Made by a program: the position numbers and the translations under genes
The notes under the pieces: generated by a model
Databases searched by the model: none
Seen by the model: the letters and a program-made list of their open reading frames with translations, nothing else
What the model was told of the DNA's origin: nothing
Shown here: one piece after another, positions 17,016 through 43,425 of the stretch
Numbering within the stretch: the first letter of the stretch is position 1
Layout of the letters: each line of letters opens with the position of its first letter
NCBI RefSeq assembly: GCF_009725755.1
Contig: NZ_WNIJ01000001.1
Location: 992,001 to 1,056,000, forward strand
DNA: 64,000 nucleotides
Origin: Bombella sp. ESL0385
Lineage (GTDB): Bacteria > Pseudomonadota > Alphaproteobacteria > Acetobacterales > Acetobacteraceae
Reading direction: 5' to 3'

Positions 17016-17243
17016 TTACTTCTTGATATTACCGATACCAGAGAAACGCTTGTTGAACTTAGCAACCTGCCCCCCTGTATCGAGAATACGCTGTACGCCT
17101 GTCCAAGCGGGATGGGTCTTGGGGTCGATATCAAGGCGTAGCGTAGCACCAGGCTCGCCATAGCAGGAGCGGGTTTTATATTCGCTGCCATCAGCCATCA
17201 CGACTGTGATTTCATGATAGTCGGGGTGGATGCCGGATTTCAT
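17016..17243 (-). CDS. rpmE: 50S ribosomal protein L31
   Basis: A 75-residue basic ribosomal protein starting [19 protein letters not shown], with the [18 protein letters not shown] and FNKRFSG blocks of L31. Only one cysteine (SCYGEP) is present, so this is the zinc-free (C-minus) form, normal in many alphaproteobacteria. It is monocistronic, with a hairpin-plus-T terminator 34 bases after its stop. The 230-base upstream region is AT-rich and contains a small CTCCG/CGGAG hairpin in the leader, of unknown meaning. Confidence 0.95.
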
Positions 17244-17388
17244 AATATTTCCTGAACCTAAAAGAAAGAAACTCCGATGCCGACCGGAGCAGACGCAGCC
17301 CTCTTACAGGATTTTTTCTATAAAATAAAGCGCGTTTCCTTTCTTTTTATGGGGTTCTTATGAGGAAGGTCGCTTGTGGTTTTGGCGA

Positions 17389-17403
17389 ACATATACAATA
17401 TGT
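17389..17403. promoter_or_regulatory. small inverted repeat in the rpmE-mscL divergent region
   Basis: ACATAT-ACA-ATATGT is a perfect 6+6 inverted repeat with a 3-base centre, 73 bases before the mscL start. It may be an operator or part of a promoter. The -10 and -35 elements are not clear. Nothing else distinctive is seen in the 232-base gap. Confidence 0.3.
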
Positions 17404-17475
17404 CTCCCCATTGTTTTACGCCTTTATGGGCATAGGCTTGTTGGGGCGTTCCACTTTAAGGATTAGGTTAGGTTT

Positions 17476-17928
17476 ATGAGTCGGATTAAGACGCCCGGTT
17501 GGGTTGCTGATTTCCAGAAGTTCATCATGCGTGGCAATGTTATGGATCTTGCCATTGGTGTTGTCGTTGGTGCAGCTTTTACGGGAATTGTAAATAGTGC
17601 CGTCAAGGATATGCTGACCCCTATTTTGGGGTGTCTAACAGGTGGTGTGGATTTCTCCAATATTTTTATCACCATAAAAGGACCTGTGAAGGATACTTTG
17701 GCAGAGGCGCAAAAAGCCGGATCTGTGACCATTAATGTTGGTTTGTTCCTTAATGCAGTGATTCAATTCTTAATCATTGCCTTCTTTGTCTTTTGGGCCA
17801 TGAGATTGATTAGTAAATTGCATCGTAAAGAGGACGCTAAACCAGTTGCTCCGCCAGCACCTAGCCAAGAGGAAATCCTGCTGACGGAAATCCGTGACAT
17901 TTTAGCTGGGCGTTCTTCCGACAAATGA
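17476..17928 (+). CDS. mscL: large-conductance mechanosensitive channel
   Basis: MscL opens under membrane tension to release solutes on osmotic downshock. The 150-residue protein has the N-terminal amphipathic helix (WVADFQKFIMRGNVMDLAIG) with the GNVMDLAIGVVVGAAF pore-lining TM1. A periplasmic loop follows, then TM2 (FLNAVIQFLIIAFFVFWAMRL), a charged linker and a C-terminal helical bundle (EEILLTEIRDIL). A small secreted-protein gene overlaps its stop by four bases. Confidence 0.95.
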   Translation: MSRIKTPGWVADFQKFIMRGNVMDLAIGVVVGAAFTGIVNSAVKDMLTPILGCLTGGVDFSNIFITIKGPVKDTLAEAQKAGSVTINVGLFLNAVIQFLIIAFFVFWAMRLISKLHRKEDAKPVAPPAPSQEEILLTEIRDILAGRSSDK

Positions 17929-32683: not shown

Positions 32684-33865
32684 TTATGCGGGAGGTAGTT
32701 CTTTTTCATATAAACGATGCCGTTTATGCGGGTGAGGGACGAGCGATTCGGCAAGATTTCTCATACCTGTATCACTTTCCAAAACCCAGCCGAGTTCGAC
32801 CCATGTATAAGGCAAATTATGCCCCCGGCGCATCAGCTCAACAATCGCGAGGGATGGCAGGAGTGAGCCAAGCATGGTCCCGCGCAATTTGCTCGTAACA
32901 CCAAGGAGAATCACGCGGGCGGAATGAAACTTATGTGTCGCTAAGCGATAACCGAGGCGCACCCATCCCAGCGGGCTAGGGGCCCCGCCTAAATCCCCTG
33001 CAATATCGTAAAGATTCGGCAATACCATAGCCATGGCAACAGGCTCACCATTCTGGTCAATCTGCACATAATGCTCGGGGCGGAGTAACGGCTTGATTTG
33101 CTCAATCATGGCCGTCATCTCATAATCCTGCATGGGCACAAAATTATATTTATGTGACCACGCATCATTATAGAGCTTCCGCAGCACTTCCCCTTGGGTG
33201 GTGATTTCTTTTTTGGAGAGATTCCGCGTTGTGATGCTGCTTAACCGCCCTTCGCCGAGCTTCAAATTACCGGGGACTTTAAAACGTTCCTCCGTATTAT
33301 CACCTAGCTCTAAACGATAGCTTAGGAGGTCTTGCGTCTTTTTATAGCCAGCTTGGCGAATAAACTCATCCAAGCCTTTCGGATGCCAAGGAATCGCAAT
33401 CATAGGGGCAGAGCATTGCCCATCCACCATGGTGCCAGTCTCCGCATTTCCACTAAGGGTCACAGGGCCGCGGACCTTGGAAATCTGCCGTTTTTGTAGC
33501 CATTCCTCTACCTTCTGTAGAAGGGCGGAAACAATGGGGGATTCTGGCAAAGCATCTAACGCGCCAAATTGGCCGATCACTTCCTGCCAATGTTCAATGG
33601 CTTTGAGATCAACAATAGCAGCGATTCGCCCAACTGGCTTGCCATCACGCCATGCAAGGAAGTATTGAATCTCAGCATGCCGGAAAACAGGAGATTCCTT
33701 AGGGTTTAGTAAATGCCTCTGCTCCATATCCAAAGGGGAGACAAAGCCTGTCATTCCTTTGTAGATATGACGCGGAAGTGTGATAAAACGACGCAAATCT
33801 CCCCGTGTTACGACGGGACGAACATCGATCTCACCAGATTGAGGGTTTGACGCTTCACATTGCAT
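32684..33865 (-). CDS. GNAT-fold acyltransferase, YghO / bacterial ceramide synthase-like
   Basis: A 393-residue cytoplasmic protein. The N-terminal region (VVTRGDLRRFITLPRHIYKG, FLAWRDGKPVGRIAAIVD) is a GNAT-type domain, and a second one lies in the C-terminal half (VQIDQNGEPVAMAMVLPNLY, then LLGVTSKLRGTMLGSLL). This layout is that of the YghO-like family. As I recall it, the bacterial ceramide synthase of Caulobacter belongs to this family, and acetic acid bacteria are known to make dihydroceramides. So N-acylation of a sphingoid base is a reasonable guess, not a demonstration. It diverges from an SDR gene across 61 bases, a possible partner. No serine palmitoyltransferase gene is in the window. 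Confidence 0.5.
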   Translation of the reverse strand: MQCEASNPQSGEIDVRPVVTRGDLRRFITLPRHIYKGMTGFVSPLDMEQRHLLNPKESPVFRHAEIQYFLAWRDGKPVGRIAAIVDLKAIEHWQEVIGQFGALDALPESPIVSALLQKVEEWLQKRQISKVRGPVTLSGNAETGTMVDGQCSAPMIAIPWHPKGLDEFIRQAGYKKTQDLLSYRLELGDNTEERFKVPGNLKLGEGRLSSITTRNLSKKEITTQGEVLRKLYNDAWSHKYNFVPMQDYEMTAMIEQIKPLLRPEHYVQIDQNGEPVAMAMVLPNLYDIAGDLGGAPSPLGWVRLGYRLATHKFHSARVILLGVTSKLRGTMLGSLLPSLAIVELMRRGHNLPYTWVELGWVLESDTGMRNLAESLVPHPHKRHRLYEKELPPA

Positions 33866-33926
33866 AGCAATGGCTATACGCGTACATGACCTTTCCCGCT
33901 AGAGGGTAAAAAATGAAAGGGCCACT

Positions 33927-34730
33927 ATGTCCAGACCAGAAAAAGAGACAATGACAGTGCGACATCACATTCTTATTACGGGGGCTTCCAGCGGTATTGG
34001 GGCAGCTCTAGCAGCCTATTACGCACGTCCCGGCGTGTTGCTGACATTGTGGGGACGCAATGAGGAGCGTCTTGAAAATACGGCGTCCATCGCTCGTAAA
34101 AAAGGGGCCGCGGTAGAGACGCTTTGTATCGATTTAACGCAGGCAGACAAAGCTCTAGCGGCTTTAATTAAGGCAGATGATGAATGTCCGGTCGATATTT
34201 TGATTCTCTCAGCTGGGATGGCCGATATTCGCCCACATAATGCCCTTGCTGAATCTGCGGAGACAGCTTTGCGGATGTCCATGGTCAATTTTGCCACACC
34301 AGTGGCTATGGCTACAGAGATGGCAAATCGTATGGCAGAGCGGCGGCGTGGGCGCATCGCATTGATGGGGTCTGTCGCTTCGTTCCATGACCTCCCCTTA
34401 GCAACCGTGTATAGTGGATCTAAGGCAGGGATTGGGCGGTTTAGCACGGCTCTGCGTGCCGCGATGGACCCTTACAACGTGCGCGTTTGCCTGATTGCTC
34501 CCGGCTTTATTGATACCCCTATGAGCCAGCGTCTCGATGGTGAGCAAGCCTTCCTTGTGCCTGTCGATAAAGCCGCACGTAAAATTGCACGCAGCATTAA
34601 TGCGGGGCGGGCTGTTCTCGTATTCCCATGGGTGTTCCAGTTGACGCGCCTGTTGGAGATGCTTCTTCCACGCCCGATTGCGCATCGGATTTTGCGGCGT
34701 CTGGATGTGATGCAACACCCAGAGGGATAG
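33927..34730 (+). CDS. short-chain dehydrogenase/reductase
   Basis: A 267-residue classical SDR. The cofactor motif is LITGASSGIGAAL, followed by a NAD(P)-selecting stretch (LTLWGRNEERL), LSAGMAD (the NNAG equivalent), the catalytic Ser in LMGSVAS, and the YSGSKAG Tyr-x3-Lys pair. PGFIDTPM follows. The C-terminal 45 residues (VLVFPWVFQLTRLLEML, then RPIAHRILRRL) resemble the membrane-associating tail of lipid-modifying SDRs such as 3-ketodihydrosphingosine reductases. That suggests a lipid substrate and fits the adjacent divergent GNAT-fold gene. The ATG at 33927 follows AAAGGG; a second in-frame ATG is at 33951. Confidence 0.78.
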   Translation: MSRPEKETMTVRHHILITGASSGIGAALAAYYARPGVLLTLWGRNEERLENTASIARKKGAAVETLCIDLTQADKALAALIKADDECPVDILILSAGMADIRPHNALAESAETALRMSMVNFATPVAMATEMANRMAERRRGRIALMGSVASFHDLPLATVYSGSKAGIGRFSTALRAAMDPYNVRVCLIAPGFIDTPMSQRLDGEQAFLVPVDKAARKIARSINAGRAVLVFPWVFQLTRLLEMLLPRPIAHRILRRLDVMQHPEG

Positions 34731-34813
34731 TGATTTTTGATCAAACTTGCAGCTCTCAGCGTAGCGTGGGAAAAGGGGGGTATATGCCTTTAGGTGAAAT
34801 GAAGGACGAGTCC

Positions 34814-35797
34814 ATGAAAGAAATTGTTGCCGTTGATATTGGTGGCACCCACGCACGTTTTGCCATTGCGCAAGTTAAAGAGGGCAAAGTTGTCTCTCTA
34901 GGTGAGGCTACAACGCTAAAATGTGCCGAGCATGCTTCGCTTGCATTGGCATGGGAGGCTTTTGAGCGGTCTTTGGGTCGTTCCGCCCCACGGGAGGCCG
35001 GTATTGCTGTGGCTTGCCCTATTAACGGCGACATCCTCAAAATGACTAACAATCCATGGATTATCCAGCCAGCTCAATTAGGAGCACGGTTGCATTTAGA
35101 TGATTTTGTGTTGGTCAATGATTTTGGTGCGATTGGACATGCTGTTGCTCAAGTCGGCCCGGAATATATGAATCATCTCTGTGGCCCCAACACAGACCTG
35201 CCGAATACGGGAACGATTACGATTTTAGGCCCCGGCACAGGCCTCGGTGTTGCACTTCTTCTGCGGAGAGAGCAGGGGTATCATGTGATTGAGACAGAAG
35301 GCGGGCATATGGATTTCTCTCCGCTTGATGCCATTGATGATCATATTCTCTGCGCCTTGCGGGCACGTTTCCGCCGTGTCTCTGTGGAGCGAATCGTCTC
35401 TGGTCCGGGGCTGACAAATCTTTATGAAGTCATCGCGGAATTGCAGGACCGCCCTGTCACTATCAAGGATAATCGTGCCTTGTGGACAACAGCGATGGAA
35501 GGGACGGATAATCTCGCTGCGGCTGCGTTAGAGCGTTTCTTCCTTAGTTTGGGGGCTGTGGCTGGGGACTTAGCTCTTGCTCATGGTGCGCATGGTGTTG
35601 TGGTTGCTGGGGGCCTTGGGCAAAGATTAGCGAATATTCTGCCTCATTCTGGTTTTGCAGAGCGTTTCTTAGCGAAAGGGCGTTTTGAAACTATGATGAG
35701 CGAAATGCCTGTAAAGATTATTACGCATCCTCAGCCGGGCCTTTATGGGGCGGCGGCGGCTTATGCAAGCAAGCTTGCTCATAAAGTCAAAGCTTAA
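34814..35797 (+). CDS. glk: glucokinase
   Basis: Glucokinase phosphorylates glucose to glucose 6-phosphate. The 327-residue protein has the phosphate-1 motif AVDIGGTHARFAIA, PINGDILKMTNNPW, VLVNDFGAIGHAV (catalytic Asp region), GPGTGLGVALL, ETEGGHMDFSP (substrate Glu-His) and HGVVVAGGLGQRL. It belongs to the proteobacterial Glk family rather than ROK. Start at 34814 is chosen for AAGGACGAG upstream; in-frame ATGs at 34784 and 34799 are alternatives. A GGGTTC/GAACCC stem-loop lies about 15 bases after the stop and may end transcription, though no T run follows. Confidence 0.92.
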   Translation: MKEIVAVDIGGTHARFAIAQVKEGKVVSLGEATTLKCAEHASLALAWEAFERSLGRSAPREAGIAVACPINGDILKMTNNPWIIQPAQLGARLHLDDFVLVNDFGAIGHAVAQVGPEYMNHLCGPNTDLPNTGTITILGPGTGLGVALLLRREQGYHVIETEGGHMDFSPLDAIDDHILCALRARFRRVSVERIVSGPGLTNLYEVIAELQDRPVTIKDNRALWTTAMEGTDNLAAAALERFFLSLGAVAGDLALAHGAHGVVVAGGLGQRLANILPHSGFAERFLAKGRFETMMSEMPVKIITHPQPGLYGAAAAYASKLAHKVKA

Positions 35798-35863
35798 GGC
35801 ATCTTTTATAGGGTTCTCTCGCTTAGAAGGTGAGGGAACCCTCTCCATAAAGGGGCGTAGAAG

Positions 35864-36499
35864 GTGAGGTTCACTCCTTTTGTCATGGTGATTCTTGCAG
35901 GGCTTGCTGGCTATGCTGGCTTTGTAGCAGGGCATCATAGGCCATCCTTTACGAGGTCACGTCTCCCGCCACCACCTGCTTTGGGCTCGCGAGATGCTGA
36001 GCTGGATAAGCAGATATATCTAACAACGCGACAGTTGATAGGATCGGCACGATGGCAACAAGCCGTTGAGGATGCAAAACTGAATGATGAAGGGACTGTT
36101 CAAGCTTTTGTAGAGGTTGAACAACTGCATCTCTCCCCGGTGGAGAAAGAAGCCCTCATGCAGCGATTGAGAGTCGTGCAGGCTATGGCACGCCGCGCTA
36201 TGGGCGGAGAGAAATATATTTGGCAACGCCGCCGCCCCTTTATAGATTATGGCGGGCAAAGTTGCGTTATTGATATTCAACGCTTTCTCACAAGTTGGTC
36301 CTATCCCTCGGGCCACACGGTACGTGCCTACGCGCTAGCATTGGCTTTATCGAAATTATACCCCGAACATCGAGCTGCCTTCCTAGCAAAAGCCCATCAA
36401 TTTGCAGAAAGTCGCGTGATTTGTGGGATGCACTGGGCGTCCGATATTAAGGCAGGTGAAGCATTTGCAACTCGATTGATGGAGACTGTTGCCCCGTAG
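35864..36499 (+). CDS. class A acid phosphatase (PAP2 superfamily), secreted or anchored
   Basis: A 211-residue protein with an N-terminal hydrophobic segment (residues 5-22), a signal or anchor. The phosphatase signature is complete: K-x6-RP (KYIWQRRRP), PSGH (SWSYPSGHT), and SR-x5-H-x3-D (SRVICGMHWASD). These are the catalytic residues of bacterial class A non-specific acid phosphatases, which use a phospho-histidine intermediate in the periplasm. Start is GTG at 35864 with an AGGGGCG upstream. It lies 66 bases after glk and directly before the AT-rich accessory segment. Confidence 0.85.
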   Translation: MRFTPFVMVILAGLAGYAGFVAGHHRPSFTRSRLPPPPALGSRDAELDKQIYLTTRQLIGSARWQQAVEDAKLNDEGTVQAFVEVEQLHLSPVEKEALMQRLRVVQAMARRAMGGEKYIWQRRRPFIDYGGQSCVIDIQRFLTSWSYPSGHTVRAYALALALSKLYPEHRAAFLAKAHQFAESRVICGMHWASDIKAGEAFATRLMETVAP

Positions 36500-36676
36500 C
36501 TAGGCGTATGCGTGCAATGGGCATAAAAGCTAGATTTTATTCAGTTTAGAGGCTCCTTTGCAGTGTCATCCTTATTATGAGGGACTGCGAATAAAGTTAC
36601 CCAATGTTGCTATACAATTCGGGGTTTGGTGAGGGGATTGCTTCTTAATAATCCCTTCTCTATTCCAGTGATTCAG

Positions 36677-36688
36677 TATAATTATAAT
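36677..36688 (+). promoter_or_regulatory. two overlapping TATAAT boxes before the Sel1-repeat gene
   Basis: TATAAT occurs twice, at 36677-36682 and 36683-36688, in a very AT-rich stretch 30-40 bases before the start codon. No convincing TTGACA is seen at the right distance. The rest of the 218-base gap after the phosphatase gene holds a GGGATT/AATCCC stem-loop (about 36631-36661) and nothing else I can name. Confidence 0.35.
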
Positions 36689-36717
36689 ATCAATAATGGA
36701 TTTATATGGAGTTTAAT

Positions 36718-38142
36718 ATGAGAAAGAGCGTAATTGGTTTATTTATTCTCTCAAGTTTCTTACCCCTAAAAGCATATGGATATCCTAAAGTTAAAAAAGA
36801 TAATGTGCAGTATAATTCGGAGGGTTCCTATGAAAGAGGCCGAGGAATACCGCAAGATTATGAGAAAGTATTTGAACGGTACCAAAAAGCAGCGGAGCAA
36901 GGAGATGCTAAGGCTCAGTATAATTTGGGAGTTTCTTACGAAAACGGTGAAGGGGTTCCGCAGGATTATAAAAAAGCTGTTGAGTGGTATCAGAAAGCAG
37001 CAGAGCAAGGGTATGCTCCAGCTCAGTATAATTTAGGATTTTCCTATTATCATGGCCAAGGAGTTCCGCAGGATTATAAAAAAGCTGTTGAGTGGTATCA
37101 GAAAGCAGCAGAGCAAGGGTATGCTCCAGCTCAGTATAATTTAGGATTTTCCTATTATCATGGCCAAGGAGTTCCGCAGAATCATGAGAAAGCGGATGAA
37201 TGGTTGCAAAAGGCAGCAGAGCGAGGAGATGCTAAGGCTCAGTTTAGTTTGGGGATTCTTTATTATAACGGCGAAGGAGTTCCGCAGAATTATAAGAAAG
37301 CTGTTGAGTGGTACCAGAAAGCAGCGGAGCAAGGGTTTGCTCTTGCTCAGTTTAATCTAGGAGTTGCCTACGATATTGGTCAAGGGGTTCCGCAGGATTA
37401 TAAGAAAGCATTTGAATGGTTGCAAAAAGCAGCGGAGCAAGGAGATGTTAAGGCTCAGTTTAAGTTAGGGGTCCTTTATCATGATGGCCAAGGAGTTCCG
37501 CAGAATTATAAGAAAGCTGTTGAGTGGCTCCAAAAGGCAGCTGACCAAGGGTATACTGACGCTCAGTATAATTTAGGGATCCTTTATTCTGATGGCCGAG
37601 GAGTTCCGCAGGATTATAAGAAAGCTGTTGAGTGGCTCCAAAAGGCAGCTGACCAAGGGTTTGCTCTTGCTCAATCTAATTTAGGATTTTCCTATGCTAT
37701 CGGCCAAGGCGTGCCACGGAATTACGAGAAAGCTGCTGAGTGTTTCCAAAAGGCAGCGGAACAAGGGTTGGCTGACGGTCAGTATAATTTAGGATTTTCT
37801 TACGAAAACGGCAAAGGAGTTCCGCAGGATTATAAGAAAGCCATTGAATGGTACCAGAAAGCAGCAGAGCAAGGGGTGGCTGACGCTCAGTATAAGTTAG
37901 GATTTTTTTATGATAACGGCGAAGGAGTTCCGCAGGATTATAAGAAAGCAGCGGAGTGGTATCAAAAAGCTGCTGACCAAGGGTCTGCCTCAGCTCAGTA
38001 TAGGTTAGGACTTTTCTATGCTATTGGCCGAGGAGTTCCAAGGGATTATACGAAAGCTATTGGATGGTTCCAAAAAGCAGCGGAGCAAGGGTTTGCTCAA
38101 GCAAAATCTATACTAAAAGAATTCTCAAAAAGTCAGCCTTAA
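36718..38142 (+). CDS. secreted Sel1-like repeat protein with 12 repeats
   Basis: A 474-residue protein with a signal peptide (MRKSVIGLFILSSFLPLKAYG) and twelve 36-residue Sel1-like repeats from about residue 45 to the end. Each has the form GVPQDYKKAVEWYQKAAEQG, then about 16 residues with AQYNLG. These fold as paired helices and usually bind other proteins. Repeats 2 and 3 are identical. Start at 36718 is set by GGAG six bases upstream; an in-frame ATG at 36706 contains that site. The DNA is clearly more AT-rich than the flanking core genes. A secreted or periplasmic binding role is inferred; the partner is unknown. Left-hand gene of the accessory segment. Confidence 0.82.
   Translation: MRKSVIGLFILSSFLPLKAYGYPKVKKDNVQYNSEGSYERGRGIPQDYEKVFERYQKAAEQGDAKAQYNLGVSYENGEGVPQDYKKAVEWYQKAAEQGYAPAQYNLGFSYYHGQGVPQDYKKAVEWYQKAAEQGYAPAQYNLGFSYYHGQGVPQNHEKADEWLQKAAERGDAKAQFSLGILYYNGEGVPQNYKKAVEWYQKAAEQGFALAQFNLGVAYDIGQGVPQDYKKAFEWLQKAAEQGDVKAQFKLGVLYHDGQGVPQNYKKAVEWLQKAADQGYTDAQYNLGILYSDGRGVPQDYKKAVEWLQKAADQGFALAQSNLGFSYAIGQGVPRNYEKAAECFQKAAEQGLADGQYNLGFSYENGKGVPQDYKKAIEWYQKAAEQGVADAQYKLGFFYDNGEGVPQDYKKAAEWYQKAADQGSASAQYRLGLFYAIGRGVPRDYTKAIGWFQKAAEQGFAQAKSILKEFSKSQP
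36952..37167 (+). repeat. 108-bp tandem duplication inside the Sel1-repeat gene
   Basis: Positions 36952-37059 and 37060-37167 are two adjacent copies of a 108-base unit that differ by one base that I can see (GGGGTT versus GGAGTT). The unit equals three turns of 36 bases, exactly one Sel1 repeat, so frame is kept. The other repeats are much more diverged, which marks this as a recent duplication. Confidence 0.9.
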
Positions 38143-38265
38143 ATACATTATATATGTGCTGCCCCGTAAGGTGTGGAATTAGCGCATCGGTCATGTCGAG
38201 TGTGGGTCCGTTTCTTCATGCCTTTTTGATGTTGTAGCATAATTTCGTTGTAGGGGGGTGAAGAC

Positions 38266-39309
38266 ATGTTACGGTTGGGGGTTGTGATGCGGGGATTTGT
38301 TGCGGGGATTTTGAGTTTTGTGGCGTTTGTTTTGATGCCTGGTTTGGGTGTTTGTGCTGATGGGATACCGCCTATAGAGGAGGGGTTGAAGATGGTTGCG
38401 GCGCAGCAGCAATATGCGTTGCAGCGGATGGGCTTGAGTGCGTCGTTAGCGCGGCAGGCTTTGTGGGGGGCGAAGTATAAGCCTGAGTCTATGTGCGCGC
38501 AGCATGTGAGTTTGCTGTTGAGCGGGTATGATGCGTTGCATCCTGAGTTCCCTGATGATGGGCCGCCGGATAAGGATAGGCAGGAGCGTATTCGCTTAGC
38601 GAATTCTGGGTCATGGCGGTTTGTTTACGATATTGAGCAAGTGCATATTTGTAGTAAGGCCTTTTTGGATAAGACGCCTGCGAAGCCTGTAGTTCGTAAT
38701 CATGCAGAGGTGGTTGCAAGGGACTTTCTAACCGATCGTCAAGGGACGATTAAGGCAATGATTGACGCTGGTGTAGAAAAAGGTGTTGCGGAGAGTGCAG
38801 CTGTTCTTTTAACGACTCAAAAAGGAAGGTTTGAAGCCTGTGCTGTGACAGTAGACCTTTTATTGCACGCTCATCAACCGTTGATGGGGCTGGATACGGA
38901 TATTGCCCGGGAGTTGAATGCTCGGAGTTTTGAAACAGCGGAAACAGATTGTGACATTGGGCGGATGTATCAAGACCCGAATGCGGAAGACCCTTATGCG
39001 CCATCGATTGAGCGGTTATTGAAGGCTTTTCGGGAGGACCGGAAGGGGACGATTAAGAGGTTGAAGAAAGTGGGCGTCCGATGGGATCATGCTGAGGATG
39101 CGGCAGATTTAGTTCTTTCCCAGAAGGGGCGTTATTGGCGTTGCGCGGTTATTGTAGGGGGGTTGTTGGATAATATGGGGTATGAGTGGGGGGATATTAC
39201 CCATCATGTAGATGCGATAAATAAGGGGTTTTATTACGTAGGGAGTACGGTTGGCGATGGGGTTTGTGATGTGGATAATATGAATCATGACCCGCGAGAG
39301 GGATGGTAG
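38266..39309 (+). CDS. secreted three-repeat cysteine protein A1, unknown family
   Basis: A 347-residue protein I do not recognise. After a signal peptide (MRGFVAGIL, core, cleavage near GVCA) it consists of three diverged units of about 90-100 residues. Each has a basic helix-like start, a K-x-x-R/S...CA motif, a run of hydrophobics (LLL or GGLL), then a stretch ending in a second cysteine. The pairs are MCAQHV/HICSK, ACAVTV/DCDIG and RCAVIVGG/VCDVDNM, so three disulfides are possible. Units 2 and 3 share FxxDRKGTIK and AExAA. Start at 38266 has a strong GGGGTG site; ATG at 38287 is the one conserved with the paralogue. A near-identical paralogue (A2) lies 1.7 kb downstream. Confidence 0.7.
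   Translation: MLRLGVVMRGFVAGILSFVAFVLMPGLGVCADGIPPIEEGLKMVAAQQQYALQRMGLSASLARQALWGAKYKPESMCAQHVSLLLSGYDALHPEFPDDGPPDKDRQERIRLANSGSWRFVYDIEQVHICSKAFLDKTPAKPVVRNHAEVVARDFLTDRQGTIKAMIDAGVEKGVAESAAVLLTTQKGRFEACAVTVDLLLHAHQPLMGLDTDIARELNARSFETAETDCDIGRMYQDPNAEDPYAPSIERLLKAFREDRKGTIKRLKKVGVRWDHAEDAADLVLSQKGRYWRCAVIVGGLLDNMGYEWGDITHHVDAINKGFYYVGSTVGDGVCDVDNMNHDPREGW
38287..38690 (+). repeat. direct repeat unit, copy 1 (5' end of gene A1)
   Basis: About 400 bases from the conserved ATG to the codons for KTPAKP are nearly identical to 40032-40435. After the signal-peptide region I count only about four to five substitutions. A shorter second block of identity codes for MYQDPNAEDPYAPSIERL in both genes. 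It marks tandem duplication of the A/B module. Confidence 0.9.
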
Positions 39310-39318
39310 AGCAAGGGG

Positions 39319-39927
39319 TTAGGTTGCTCCGTTGTGAGGTGGTTTTTGGCCGAGATTGGTGCGGATGCAATCTATGGTTGTGTGCCATTTGCCTTCCGCT
39401 ATTTCTGTTGAGACTTCATGTTGGATGGCAATGGGGAGCCATAGGCCATCCCAAGGGGCTTTGCTGATAAGCTGGTGACTTTGGTTGGTGAGGCTGTTCG
39501 GTTGGCTTTGTGGAGGGAGCCAGTTTGCGGGAGCGTATTTGCTATCTAGGGTGAATGGTTGCCAGAAGGCGATGTCTGGGCGGAGGAGTGTTGTGATGGT
39601 TGTTCCGGCCTCGTTATATTTGGGGTAGCCAACCATACCATTTTGGGCGGAGATGATGGGTATTGATTTTTCTTGCCCATTTGGAGGGGTGCCAGTGTAG
39701 GAGCCGCCCCAGATTTCAACTACCCCTAGATGGGCTGTTGTTTGGGAGATTTGCTGCTTGTAGCTGTTGGGGAGGTTGTTAGTCTCGTCTTGCGTAATGG
39801 GGGTGTAAGGTCGGATATTATATTTGATATGTGTTGCGTTTACAACCCCCTTTATTTGGTCTAGCGCAGTCCCAGAGCGGTAATGGTTGGTGAGGGGGGC
39901 GTTGTTATCATCGCTCACAGAGAGCAT
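39319..39927 (-). CDS. phage baseplate hub-like protein B1, apparently lacking its N-terminus
   Basis: A 202-residue protein rich in Gln, Thr, Asn and Pro. The stretch NGMVGYPKYNEAGTTITTLL, RPDI, then WDGLWLPIAIQHEVSTEIAE, GKWHTTIDC follows a pattern I know from C-terminal parts of phage baseplate-hub or tail proteins: an IG-P-x-T...V-x-x-L-x-P segment, then HxxDxxxxxWxTxLxC. This is a weak, memory-based match. The frame continues open upstream of the ATG at 39927 with protein-like codons (FLNHVLPGRTSIM) up to the junction with gene A2 near 40020. So the real N-terminus was probably cut off by the duplication. It has no ribosome site that I can see. A decayed second copy lies at 41143-41376. 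Confidence 0.45.
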   Translation of the reverse strand: MLSVSDDNNAPLTNHYRSGTALDQIKGVVNATHIKYNIRPYTPITQDETNNLPNSYKQQISQTTAHLGVVEIWGGSYTGTPPNGQEKSIPIISAQNGMVGYPKYNEAGTTITTLLRPDIAFWQPFTLDSKYAPANWLPPQSQPNSLTNQSHQLISKAPWDGLWLPIAIQHEVSTEIAEGKWHTTIDCIRTNLGQKPPHNGAT

Positions 39928-40031
39928 GATGCTGGTGCGGCCGGGAAGAACGTGGTTGAGGAATGTTAAGGTGACAATATGGTTTATTTGTTGATAGGGT
40001 GGCTTTGACTTTGTGATTATTGGGGGGTGTG

Positions 40032-40435
40032 ATGCGGGGCATTGTTGCGGGTATTTTGAGTTTTGCGGCGTTTATTTTGGTGTCTGGTTTGGGTGTTTGT
40101 GCTGATGGGATACCGCCTATAGAGGAGGGGTTGAAGATGGTTGCGGCGCAGCAGCAATATGCGTTGCAGCGGATGGGCTTGAGTGCGGCGTTAGCGCGGC
40201 AGGCTTTGTGGGGGGCGAAGTATAAGCCTGAGTCTATGTGCGCGCAGCATGTGAGTTTGCTGTTGAGCGGGTATGATGCGTTGCATCCTGAGTTCCCTGA
40301 TGATGGGCCGCCGGATAAGGATAGGCAGGAGCGTATTCGCTTAGCGAATTCTGGGTCGTGGCGGTTTGTTTACGATATTGAGCAGGTGCATATTTGTAGC
40401 AAGGCCTTTTTGGATAAGACGCCTGCGAAGCCTGC
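40032..40435 (+). repeat. direct repeat unit, copy 2 (5' end of gene A2)
   Basis: This is the partner of 38287-38690. Homology begins a few bases before the ATG, at about 38275 and 40018, which places the duplication junction between B1 and A2. Confidence 0.9.
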
Positions 40436-41090
40436 TTATAACCCGGAGAATGATTCTGTTCAGATTATGGTGCGCGAATTTCGAGAAAATCGGCAGGGTG
40501 TGATTGATGAAATGGTAGAAGGAGGGATTGATAGGTCGGTTGCGGAGAATGCGGCTATTCTCGTGAGCTCACAGAAAGGAAGGTATAGGTGGTGTGCGCA
40601 GACGTTGAATAATGTATTGAATCGTCGGATGCCTGGTATGCCGGTCGGTAAGGAGGATGCGCGCGAGATGAATCTGCGCAGTTATGAGACGGCGGAGAAT
40701 ATTTGTGACGTAGGGTTGATGTATCAAGACCCGAATGCGGAAGACCCTTATGCGCCATCGATTGAGCGGTTGCAGAGAGCTTTTCGGGAGGACCGGAAAG
40801 GGGTGATTAAGAAGTTTGTGAAGGTTGGCGTTAGGCGTATGTGGGCGGAGAATGCAGCGGATTTAGTATTGGCGCAGAAGGGGCGGTATCGACGATGCGC
40901 TGTCATTATGGGAGGATTATTGGATAATATGGGGTATGAGTGGGGGGATATTACCCACCATGTACAGGCGATTAATGAGGGGTTTTATACTACTGGTGGT
41001 TATCCCGGAGGGGGAGGAGGAAGTGGCGTAGGAGATAGTATTTGTGATGTGGATAATATGAACCAAAATCCTCAAGAGGGGTTATGGTGA
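40032..41090 (+). CDS. secreted three-repeat cysteine protein A2, paralogue of A1
   Basis: A 352-residue paralogue of A1 with the same layout: signal peptide (MRGIVAGILSFAAF, cleavage near GVCA), then three cysteine-pair units (MCAQHV/HICSK, WCAQTL/NICDV, RCAVIMGG/SICDV). Unit 1 is almost identical to A1, unit 2 is strongly diverged, the segment before unit 3 is again near-identical, and unit 3 is moderately diverged. A Gly-rich insert (PGGGGGSGVG) precedes the last cysteine. GGGGGG lies just before the ATG. Upstream DNA differs from that of A1 from about 40018 back, so the two copies have different promoters, or A2 may depend on read-through. Function unknown. Confidence 0.7.
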   Translation: MRGIVAGILSFAAFILVSGLGVCADGIPPIEEGLKMVAAQQQYALQRMGLSAALARQALWGAKYKPESMCAQHVSLLLSGYDALHPEFPDDGPPDKDRQERIRLANSGSWRFVYDIEQVHICSKAFLDKTPAKPAYNPENDSVQIMVREFRENRQGVIDEMVEGGIDRSVAENAAILVSSQKGRYRWCAQTLNNVLNRRMPGMPVGKEDAREMNLRSYETAENICDVGLMYQDPNAEDPYAPSIERLQRAFREDRKGVIKKFVKVGVRRMWAENAADLVLAQKGRYRRCAVIMGGLLDNMGYEWGDITHHVQAINEGFYTTGGYPGGGGGSGVGDSICDVDNMNQNPQEGLW

Positions 41091-41142
41091 GGGAGGCGTG
41101 TTTAGGGTTGTGAAGCATTAGGGTATTTCCTATCGAAGGGAC

Positions 41143-41376
41143 GGTTTTTGGCCGAGGTTAGTGCGGATGCAGTCAATGGTTGTGTGCCATTTGCCTTCTT
41201 GCATTTCTGTTGAAACTTCATGTTGGATGGCGATGGGTAGGGGCTTTGCTGATAAGCTGGTGACTTTGGTTGGTGAGGCTGTTCGGTTGGTTGGGGGAAG
41301 GAAGCCAATTTTGAGGGGCGTATTTGCTCTCTAATATAAGAGGTTGCCAGAAGGCGATGTCTGGGCGAAGGAGTGG
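41143..41376 (-). pseudogene. decayed second copy of gene B (B2)
   Basis: DNA here aligns with the C-terminal third of B1 (39343 to about 39590), for example the shared stretches GGTTTTTGGCCGAG, TTTGCTGATAAGCTGGTGAC and GCCAGAAGGCGATGTCTGGG. Small deletions, one of about 17 bases where B1 encodes WDGLWLP, break the frame, so no matching protein can be made. Homology stops near 41376, right where the integrase remnant begins. It proves that A and B were duplicated as a unit. Confidence 0.85.
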
Positions 41377-41380
41377 TTCT

Positions 41381-41572
41381 TTATGATACGGCCATGGTAA
41401 ACTCAGCCCTAGCTTTATCTCGCAGGCGTCTGGCCTCTGCTAGCGTTATCTTTGGATATTATTGTTCGAACTTTATTGGCTGTAACTTAGGCCCGTTGGG
41501 CCAAACCAGTATATAAAGCCCCTGTGAGTTAGTAATCTTATACTTACTGCGGATTCTGTTATCTATCCCGCC
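41381..41572 (-). pseudogene. remnant of tyrosine integrase N-terminal domain
   Basis: Read on the minus strand, this gives IDNRIRSKYKITNSQGLYIL, then VWPNGPKL, a short disrupted part ending in a stop codon, then YPKITLAEARRLRDKARAEF and another stop. The pieces match the N-terminal DUF4102-type domain of P4-like phage integrases (usual forms: YKLTDxxGLYLLVxPNGSKLW and GxYPxVSLAEARxLRDxAR). About 20 residues between them are missing and no catalytic domain follows, so it is dead. It lies about 144 bases beyond the 3' end of tRNA-Cys, in the orientation expected for an element integrated there. Confidence 0.75.
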
Positions 41573-41715
41573 TCAACGCTATGCCTGTCAGCATACCTTT
41601 TCAAAATCATGGGATACACCGGGGCGCATCAAAACCAACCGGAATGGTCGATACCCTGAGAAAGGCCGTTACTCAAGGGGCAGGGGGCGCACTGGAAGAG
41701 AGCGAGATAACACTG
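41573..41715. other. spacer between integrase remnant and tRNA-Cys
   Basis: I find no gene here. The stretch is where an attachment site would lie. I looked for a repeat of the tRNA 3' end elsewhere in 36.5-41.7 kb and saw none by eye. Confidence 0.4.
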
Positions 41716-41789
41716 TGGAGGTCTGGGCGGGAATCGAACCCACATACGCGGATTTGCAGTCCGATGCATAGCCATTCTGCCACCAGACC
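41716..41789 (-). tRNA. tRNA-Cys (anticodon GCA)
   Basis: A 74-base cloverleaf on the minus strand. The acceptor stem GGTCTGG pairs with CCAGACC, followed by T and an encoded CCA end. The D arm, anticodon stem CGGA/TCCG with loop CTGCAAA (anticodon GCA at 41755-41757) and T arm with GTTCGATTC are all visible. It borders the accessory segment, with the integrase remnant beyond its 3' end, a classic integration target. Confidence 0.95.
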
Positions 41790-41937: not shown

Positions 41938-43425
41938 ATGACATTCCCTCTCTTCGCATTTTTGAAAAATAGACGGTCTATTCAGCTTGGACTAGGGCTT
42001 ATTACAAGCTTAGGGCTGGGGGCTGGTTATGCGTCCGCGCAGACGATTGAGGGGGCAGGTCGCTCCGAGTTTATCCCTCATACACTAAAAGAAGCCCTCT
42101 CTATGGCGTATCTAACCAATCCTCAGCTGCGTGAAGCAAGGGCGCAGTTGCGTGCTGTGGATGAGCAAATGTCCGCCGCTATGGCCGGTTGGCGTCCGAC
42201 CATTACTGGCAGTGCGGGTTTAACCTATTATAAAGGGAGTAGCCGTTATAGTCAGTTAACTGAGTTGATGGGGCGCAACGTAAAAATCCCGAACGAGCAG
42301 CGTTATAGCAATGGCGGTTATAATGCTAGTGTCTCTGTTACGCAGCCAATTTATCAAGGTGGTAAGACGGTTGCGGGCATTCATATGGCTAAGAACCAGA
42401 TTTTTGCTCAACGTGCCCGCCTCATCGCGACTGAGCAGCAAGTTTTATATAATGCGATGGAAGCTTTTGTGAAGGTTGTTGGTAATAAGCAACTCCTTCA
42501 GGTGAGTATTAATAACGAGCGGTCCTTACAACAACAACTTGACGCTACGAATCGCCGTTTTCGTCTTGGGGAGCTAAGCCGTACTGATGTTGCGCAGGCG
42601 CAAGGGGCTTTGGCTACCGCTACGGCGGAACGTCAGCAGGCTGAGGGAACATTCCAAGCGGCACAAGCAAGTTATTTACAGACCATTGGTGTCCCGGCTC
42701 CGCCGGATCTCGTGCCACCTCAGCCTTTGGCCCTACCTGTACGGACAGAAAAGGAAGCTGTGGATGAAGCCGTGCGGAACAATCCGAATGTGATTGCCGC
42801 ACTTTTTAACGAGGCGCAGCAGAAGGATAATATCTCCGTCCAAATGGCTGCTATTTTGCCGAAGATTACAGCAGGCTTAGGGTATCAACGCTCTAGGGAC
42901 CAAGCATCAGATGATTCTTTGCAAGATAACAAGTTTGCGTCTCTGACGTTGCAAGTGCCTATTTATCAGGGGGGCAGTGAATATTCGGCGGTACGTCAGG
43001 CACGGCAAACAGCTATTGCAGCACGACATGAGGTAGATGTACAGCGGCGTTTGGCTCTGCAACAAACATCATCTAGCTGGCAATATTATATAGCAACGCA
43101 AGAAACGCTAAAAAGCAATAAAGTTGCTGTCTCCTCTAATTTGGCTGCCCTTGCTGGGGTGGAGCGGCAAGCTCTGATGGGGACAGCGACAACCTTATCT
43201 GTTCTTCAGCAGCAGCAATCTTTATTGCAAGCTCAGCGTCTTTTAATTCAAAATGCAGCAGCTTTGGTGACATCATCTTACGATATTGCGCGCGCTATGG
43301 GTCGTCTCACGGCGATTGATCTGAAATTGGACGTCCCACTTTATGATGAAAAAGCCTATTATAACGCTGTGAAGACCCGCCTATGGGGCGTTGGCGATTA
43401 TAAAACGAATATTCCGGGACGATAA
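41938..43425 (+). CDS. tolC: TolC family outer membrane efflux protein
   Basis: A 495-residue outer-membrane channel of the TolC type, which connects inner-membrane exporters to the outside. It has a signal peptide (LGLGAGYASA, cleavage near residue 35), then two related halves. Each opens with the family pattern: LKEALSMAYLTNPQLREARA, and EAVDEAVRNNPNVIAALFNE. Helical stretches and beta-strand patches (ASVSVTQPIYQGGKT, ASLTLQVPIYQGGSE) follow. Full length by comparison with TolC of 470-500 residues. No cognate pump is adjacent, so it may serve several transporters. Ribosome site is weak. Upstream lies a T-rich stretch near 41855. Confidence 0.88.
   Translation: MTFPLFAFLKNRRSIQLGLGLITSLGLGAGYASAQTIEGAGRSEFIPHTLKEALSMAYLTNPQLREARAQLRAVDEQMSAAMAGWRPTITGSAGLTYYKGSSRYSQLTELMGRNVKIPNEQRYSNGGYNASVSVTQPIYQGGKTVAGIHMAKNQIFAQRARLIATEQQVLYNAMEAFVKVVGNKQLLQVSINNERSLQQQLDATNRRFRLGELSRTDVAQAQGALATATAERQQAEGTFQAAQASYLQTIGVPAPPDLVPPQPLALPVRTEKEAVDEAVRNNPNVIAALFNEAQQKDNISVQMAAILPKITAGLGYQRSRDQASDDSLQDNKFASLTLQVPIYQGGSEYSAVRQARQTAIAARHEVDVQRRLALQQTSSSWQYYIATQETLKSNKVAVSSNLAALAGVERQALMGTATTLSVLQQQQSLLQAQRLLIQNAAALVTSSYDIARAMGRLTAIDLKLDVPLYDEKAYYNAVKTRLWGVGDYKTNIPGR

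Follow-up and report, generated by a model that had tools for sequence, protein, structure and literature searches.

Variable three-domain genes alternating with broken baseplate-hub genes beside tRNA-Cys in Bombella: probable phage cargo retained after phage decay

The 64,000-nucleotide stretch analysed here (the window; Bombella sp. ESL0385, contig NZ_WNIJ01000001.1, positions 992,001 to 1,056,000) holds, next to a tRNA-Cys gene, a module in which two open reading frames (ORFs) on the plus strand, A1 and A2, alternate with two phage-like sequences on the minus strand, B1 and B2 (Table 1). Throughout, G000 is the genome carrying the window, and labels in G, L, C and g are those given in this analysis to genomes, loci, contigs and genera. 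The order A1, B1, A2, broken B2 set out in a preliminary description of the sequence is the one that we find, with both A genes open and both B copies broken, and the near-identity remarked there for the 5' ends of A1 and A2 amounts to 97% across a 300-nt block in register. Downstream blocks are 78-83% identical, the final 63-nt block 76%, and the two proteins 75%. The likely starts are ATG 38287 (A1) and ATG 40032 (A2), judging from an upstream alignment in which all 17 copies have this codon and most have a G-rich stretch ahead of it. The promoter-like site of A2 is found at the same position before both A genes of a resident phage described below, and such sites are not clearly in excess of shuffled sequence (6 versus 4.4, 7 versus 4.5). 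No terminator-like site is listed directly downstream of A in the regions scanned, and no other phage gene is recognised at the window site beyond the hub remnants.

Table 1. Positions of the module, its neighbours and the resident phage element (window coordinates unless a contig is named)
Feature	Position	Strand	Description
A1 ORF	38266-39309	+	open, 347 amino acids (aa); likely ATG start 38287; exported-type three-domain protein
A1 domain 1	38359-38679	+	residues 32-138 of the 347-aa ORF; nearly constant among copies compared
A1 domain 2	38680-38985	+	residues 139-240; variable
A1 domain 3 and tail	38986-39306	+	residues 241-347; variable; assorts independently of domain 2
B1 ORF	39319-39927	-	
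B1 hub-gene remnant	39319-39960	-	starts at about codon 86 of the hub, internal deletion; from PHROG 196 (2e-15) and tblastn against the full hub
Promoter-like site before A2	39991-40020	+	TG precedes the second hexamer
A2 ORF	40020-41090	+	open, 356 aa; ORF from TTG 40020; likely ATG start 40032
B2, broken remnant of hub 3' end	41142-41373	-	hub residues 335-367 (91%) and 285-329 (100%)
tRNA-Cys(gca)	41716-41789	-	ARAGORN; module edge; adjoins tolC in relatives too
tolC-like gene	41938-43425	+	conserved right flank, served to locate the site in relatives; matched in 11/11 genus genomes
Sel1-repeat gene	36706-38142	+	Pfam Sel1 5.4e-158, 12 stretches; upstream neighbour, outside the module
Resident phage element	G000 C1 ~410-439 kb (L018/L016/L040)		contractile-tailed; relatives L042-L046, L053, L124, L125, L127, L128

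The B sequences are broken copies of a phage baseplate-hub gene, in keeping with their earlier description as phage-like. For B1, the PHROGs search gives family 196 (baseplate hub, 2e-15) and the Pfam search gives E217 gp41 (4.2e-5), with a score under the Pfam cut-off; unlike the family, both B1 and B2 are truncated and broken. When compared by tblastn with the full hub of the resident phage, B1 aligns to residues 178-372 at 93% and, in a weak overlapping match, to residues 86-140 (51%), which points to an internal deletion, and B2 consists of the two pieces given in Table 1. Judged from these alignments, neither B1 nor B2 could encode a whole hub. Hub copies at the tRNA-Cys site and at a second chromosomal site near tRNA-Val are incomplete in every copy inspected, and none of the 18 A sequences read, some of which end at contig ends, has an internal stop; the proposal that A is kept while B decays is therefore borne out at both sites. 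The idea of a free-standing two-gene A/B system is not, because B is part of a structural gene cut short and A-domain relatives are also found with no hub beside them.

Searches of Pfam, PHROGs and NCBIfam give no significant match to A (best 0.033), and PDB sequences give nothing at E<=1; tblastn of A in phages and in plasmids, and of a 129-aa relative of A in phages, likewise gives no match. These results agree with the preliminary description, which recognised no family for A, as do the PADLOC and Foldseek searches considered below. The AlphaFold2 model of A, which is of moderate confidence (pLDDT 69.3, pTM 0.48), is almost entirely helical with about four helices per repeat, and that of a single-domain relative reaches pLDDT 85.9 and pTM 0.63. 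From the sequences and these models, A is predicted to consist of three related all-helical domains with two conserved cysteines each. Read by eye, the N-termini of A resemble export signals.

The genome (1.9 Mb, five contigs) carries six full-length A genes as three pairs, together with one weak single-domain match. One pair lies at the tRNA-Cys/tolC site of the window, one near tRNA-Val and manC, and one inside a resident contractile-tailed phage element, where spike, A, a hub fragment (residues 86-372), A and full hub follow one another and both A genes run antisense to the tail genes. The full-length hub of this element, which adjoins the two A genes, matches the PHROGs hub at 9.9e-31. The suggestion that the pair was copied as a unit is thus upheld in so far as the same A-B-A-B order already exists in the resident phage, but for that reason the copying need not have occurred at the window site, and the pairs at the window site and near tRNA-Val are, in our reading, copies probably derived from the phage. 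Three more small antisense genes, encoding proteins of 126, 129 and 196 aa (m126, m129 and m196), lie between spike and gpW, and m129 is a single-domain relative of A. Among the gene labels used here, hub, sheath, terminase, portal, major head protein and repressor come from PHROGs matches, glucokinase, PAP2 and Sel1 come from Pfam, and gpJ comes from a match in Acetobacter phage phiAO1 annotated as baseplate J-like; spike, tube, gpW, gpI, tape measure, dinB, parE, AKR, manC and TolC are what we take the remaining genes to be. The PHROGs match of the spike protein is a family of unknown function, and the PHROGs label of the tape measure is lytic tail protein. In other genus genomes, extra spike or hub fragments lie beside antisense single-domain genes (L045, L046, L052), as if a unit of tail gene plus cargo duplicates repeatedly.

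Nonsynonymous (dN) and synonymous (dS) divergence differ sharply along A. Among 17 copies, the 63-residue piece IMG_ph2P being excluded here and in typing, domain 1 has a mean dN of 0.005 and dS of 0.093 (136 pairs; ratio of means 0.05), domain 2 a mean dN of 0.325 and dS of 1.04 (136 pairs), and domain 3 a mean dN of 0.137 and dS of 0.662 (105 pairs). Single linkage at 93% nucleotide identity yields one type for domain 1, nine for domain 2 (17 copies) and six for the domain 3 core (15 copies). For two domain-2 and two domain-3 types, all four combinations (AA, AC, GA and GC) occur. Moreover, in Mantel-type matrices of 15 copies, from which two copies ending at contig ends are excluded, domain 2 and domain 3 distances are uncorrelated (r=0.03, p=0.34), and site and genome explain neither; domain 1 correlates weakly with domain 2 (r=0.21, p=0.03), and the values for domain 1 against genome and for domain 3 against the tail are r=0.23 (p=0.018) and r=0.64, respectively. 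The domain 2 type of A1 is common to both resident-phage copies and to the phage copy of G008, and window A1 and that G008 copy have identical domain types. Domains 2 and 3 have been exchanged independently between the phage and both chromosomal sites, with domain 1 constant. A multi-domain cargo with independently shuffled domains could not be seen in the preliminary description, which drew on the window sequence alone. In addition, dS between G000 and G007 is 1.41 for m129 and 0.92 for m126 against 0.01 for neighbouring gpW and 0.14 for spike, a gap implying that cargo is swapped more often than the surrounding tail genes.

Full-length A is present in 3 of 11 genus genomes (G000, G007 and G008), and short relatives are found in 10 of 11 by single-protein search and in all 11 by profile. 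Within the bacterial family, 17 of 397 genomes have A-profile matches; within the order, A-domain relatives occur in 19 of 395 genomes, all from one family and spread over five genera. The tRNA-Cys/tolC site holds two A copies in G000, three in G008 and one in G007, where the draft contigs of G007 and G008 end inside A genes and assembly error is possible. At the same site, seven of the eight genus genomes without full-length A (L068-L074) lack any match to A and to the queried element proteins and have no recognised phage genes, and the eighth, G010 (L075), has lysis- and regulator-like phage genes. Genus g61 has an A-like gene upstream of tRNA-Cys/tolC, either with a TerL-like gene (L114, G070) or without recognised phage genes (L113), and G070 also has an antisense A-like gene about 5 kb or less from tRNA-Val, with head- and spike-like pieces (L115). 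Near tRNA-Tyr in G002, relatives of m129 and m196 stand without recognised phage genes (L122, 8420-9780). In G110 (genus g101), L111 (7659-14647) holds a tandem array with a unit length of about 1.65 kb, in which four A-like genes take turns with four hub genes, one full and three shorter; as read by eye, the shorter hubs are truncated N-terminally at about the same point as the Bombella hub fragments. A-domain genes are antisense in tail operons, at various junctions, in other genera (L111, L116, L117, L129, L135, L137). The link of A to mobile DNA proposed in the preliminary description is supported, and among the loci inspected many have A-domain genes antisense in the same tail operon and some are orphans.

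Most likely, A is a periplasmic phage cargo retained after phage decay, and we regard its origin as phage cargo as very probable. In the explanation that we favour, the window module would be what remains of a tail-gene region from a contractile-tailed phage of Acetobacteraceae, and A would be cargo placed antisense between tail genes, the slot in the resident element lying between spike and hub. A was duplicated inside the phage jointly with the hub's 3' part, as the order in the resident element shows, and related prophages probably settled beside tRNA-Cys and tRNA-Val, giving the observed arrangement, and decayed in such a way that A stayed intact and the hub fragments broke. The A copies recombine, domain 1 remaining constant and domains 2 and 3 being swapped among the phage and both chromosomal sites. 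In the periplasm of the carrier, A may then bind a component of an incoming related contractile tail and block entry, and the variable domains would set which tail is recognised. Our reasons for favouring protection are the position of A at the tail-tip genes, its putative export signal, its variability and its multiplication. That A protects its carrier against related contractile tails is nevertheless a tentative proposal, with the balance leaning somewhat to the other side, and the whole explanation, from tail-region relic through retained cargo to the blocking of related tails, falls a little short of an even chance.

Several observations weigh against parts of this explanation. Between the 3' end of tRNA-Cys and window positions 33001-41700, the longest shared word is 10 nt and there is no att repeat, and the 3' end of tRNA-Val shares no word of 10 nt with L017 7401-12000; neither comparison supports integration at the tRNA genes. 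As no other recognised phage gene accompanies the hub remnants at the window site, the module may instead have come from the resident phage by a small recombinational transfer. The resident element itself contains no tyrosine-integrase match, all four in the genome falling elsewhere. In L112, L118 and L121, the loci of this kind that the tRNA scan covered, A-domain genes lie outside a recognised tail operon and have no tRNA found nearby, and L136 and L138 also lie outside a recognised tail operon. PADLOC profiles place A1 and A2 in 0 families and give none for the short relatives m129 and m126 (their neighbour m196 has a weak AbiEi match, 0.0065), and Foldseek finds nothing at E<=0.001 for the models against the PDB or for the A model against viral models. 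Hub pieces of at least 150 residues are 93-96% identical to the resident hub, and shorter ones are mostly 76-100% identical, weak overlapping matches aside; with the hub near-uniform while A varies more, A is not matched to hub variants. Finally, when G000 C1 880-1115 kb is compared with the fetched stretches of G008, 187 of 236 1-kb pieces are matched (at least 400 nt) and 45% of those matched are below 90% identity, in a patchwork of long 97-99% tracts beside tracts of roughly 75-85%. This suggests that divergent Bombella lineages exchange DNA heavily by homologous recombination, and, since the whole chromosome is mosaic, recombination is not special to A and the shuffling may partly be general. 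What is particular to A is independent exchange within one gene having a constant first domain. We also considered that the A locus sits in a special divergent tract (mostly 75-88% identity at ~28-43 kb), and rejected this when the wider control showed the whole compared stretch to be mosaic.

A serious alternative, which we still consider somewhat unlikely, is that A is host-fitness cargo with no defence role, acting in stress, the envelope or interaction with the bee gut, with variable domains that bind different ligands of the envelope or the host. Support for it comes from phiAO1 (LC644971), in which 21 queried element proteins find matches, mostly head and tail proteins and largely in the same order, with no match listed for the TerL or tape-measure protein of the element. 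Like the element, phiAO1 has antisense cargo among its structural genes, including between the spike-like and gpW-like genes; unlike A, this cargo comprises catalase, superoxide dismutase, peroxiredoxin and sulfurtransferase (L130, 1611-4314 and 21209-23332), enzymes against oxidative stress that favour a host-fitness role and thus also count against protection. The antisense gene at 17050-17541, the only one of phiAO1 compared with the A profile, does not match it. Retention of A after phage decay fits host fitness as well, but A matches no enzyme family in Pfam, PHROGs or NCBIfam, and in the order-wide search its family is confined to one bacterial family, with many loci in or beside this phage type.

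It is highly unlikely, in our estimate, that the arrays arose as by-products when phage copies recombined, with no special selection on A. The mosaic comparison with G008 attests to a highly recombinogenic chromosome, as that account expects, but the absence of internal stops from A, the strong constraint on domain 1 and the retention of A-like genes at tRNA sites in two genera speak for selection. We give very little credence to the view that each A neutralises an adjacent hub variant in an orphan toxin-tip/immunity module of the sort that occurs in contact-dependent inhibition (CDI) or Rhs loci: in two genera, a full hub does stand in an array where A takes turns with hub copies that lack their N-terminus, but the long Bombella hub pieces are nearly alike against nine domain-2 types in 17 A copies, the window hub copies are broken, and we reject the pairing because the hub does not vary together with A. 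Hardly more credible is a regulatory role, in which A transcripts running across the hub would control the late tail genes, or a structural one, with A as a particle component, as its antisense position inside the tail operon might suggest, given that the protein sequence and export-signal-like N-terminus are kept, that A persists where no tail gene is whole, and that 7 of the 8 genus genomes lacking full-length A have a sheath gene (10 of 11 in all, with short A-domain relatives in 11 of 11).

A more far-reaching form of the protection proposal, which we judge quite unlikely, would make A a recombining recognition repertoire: domain 1 would serve as an anchor, domains 2 and 3 would be exchanged among an integrase-less domesticated phage element and the two arrays, the homology arms being provided by domain 1 and the hub fragments, and carriers would gain protection against the changing contractile-tail particles of their relatives. 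If the favoured explanation is true, the module is a clear case, seen beside tRNA genes of more than one genus, of phage cargo that outlives its phage and that evolves through domain shuffling between phage and chromosome. It also raises the question of whether variable periplasmic cargo proteins decide the entry of related phages or phage-like particles.

Among known kinds of gene, the A module would belong with phage morons, or lysogenic-conversion genes, in a new variant form. Like morons, A is oriented opposite to the late genes between which it lies (spike and hub, with relatives at other tail junctions), has an exported-type product and is kept while phage genes decay; it differs in being multi-copy, three-domain, domain-shuffled, duplicated with a tail-gene piece and of no known family. 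A also shares an export-signal-like N-terminus, prophage encoding and small helical domains with superinfection-exclusion proteins, to which it has no sequence or fold match. Literature searches on opposite-strand morons in tail modules and on Bombella with gene transfer agents found no paper, and those on Bombella with superinfection found only PMC10259446. Predicted Bombella prophages are reported in PMC9147383, PMC12282179 and PMC10259446, the accessible parts of which make no mention of A or of a fixed phage element; in those of PMC9147383, bacteriocins are recorded as not found. No prior description of an integrase-less fixed element in Bombella turned up in the literature searched, so far as its accessible text extends.

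That element occupies a fixed place in much of Bombella and is possibly a domesticated particle, similar to PBSX or to a gene transfer agent (GTA), in a bee symbiont. Of the 11 genus genomes, 8 (G000, G001, G003, G004, G005, G006, G007 and G010) share one or both of its flanks, G000, G001 and G006 sharing both, and those of G002, G008 and G009 were not seen; its repressor adjoins dinB. The structural genes are mostly strongly constrained, with capsid dN/dS of 0.042 against G001 and 0.034 against G006 at dS >1, several dS values in this comparison being saturated or undefined, and hub (0.21) and gpI (0.23-0.37) are looser. Rows for gluK (against G001, G007 and G008) and OmpA (against G006) were dropped as alignment artefacts because dN exceeded 1 despite high amino-acid identity. 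Going by other phages, a 43.1-nm head is small for 34 kb. The accessible part of the phiAO1 report describes its recovery from mitomycin-C-induced particles, a 34,100-bp genome with no integrase that is predicted to be incomplete, and a 43.1-nm head for the particles of its host (PMC8566455). These features make a PBSX- or GTA-like role possible.

The Sel1-repeat gene that adjoins A1 contains 108-bp DNA repeats and is matched in G008 (L048), with none in the fetched G007 stretch (L050). Elsewhere on C1 of G000, about 38 kb (~946-983 kb) is unmatched in the fetched G008 stretches and ends near an integrase at 983.8 kb, and is perhaps a separate mobile element.

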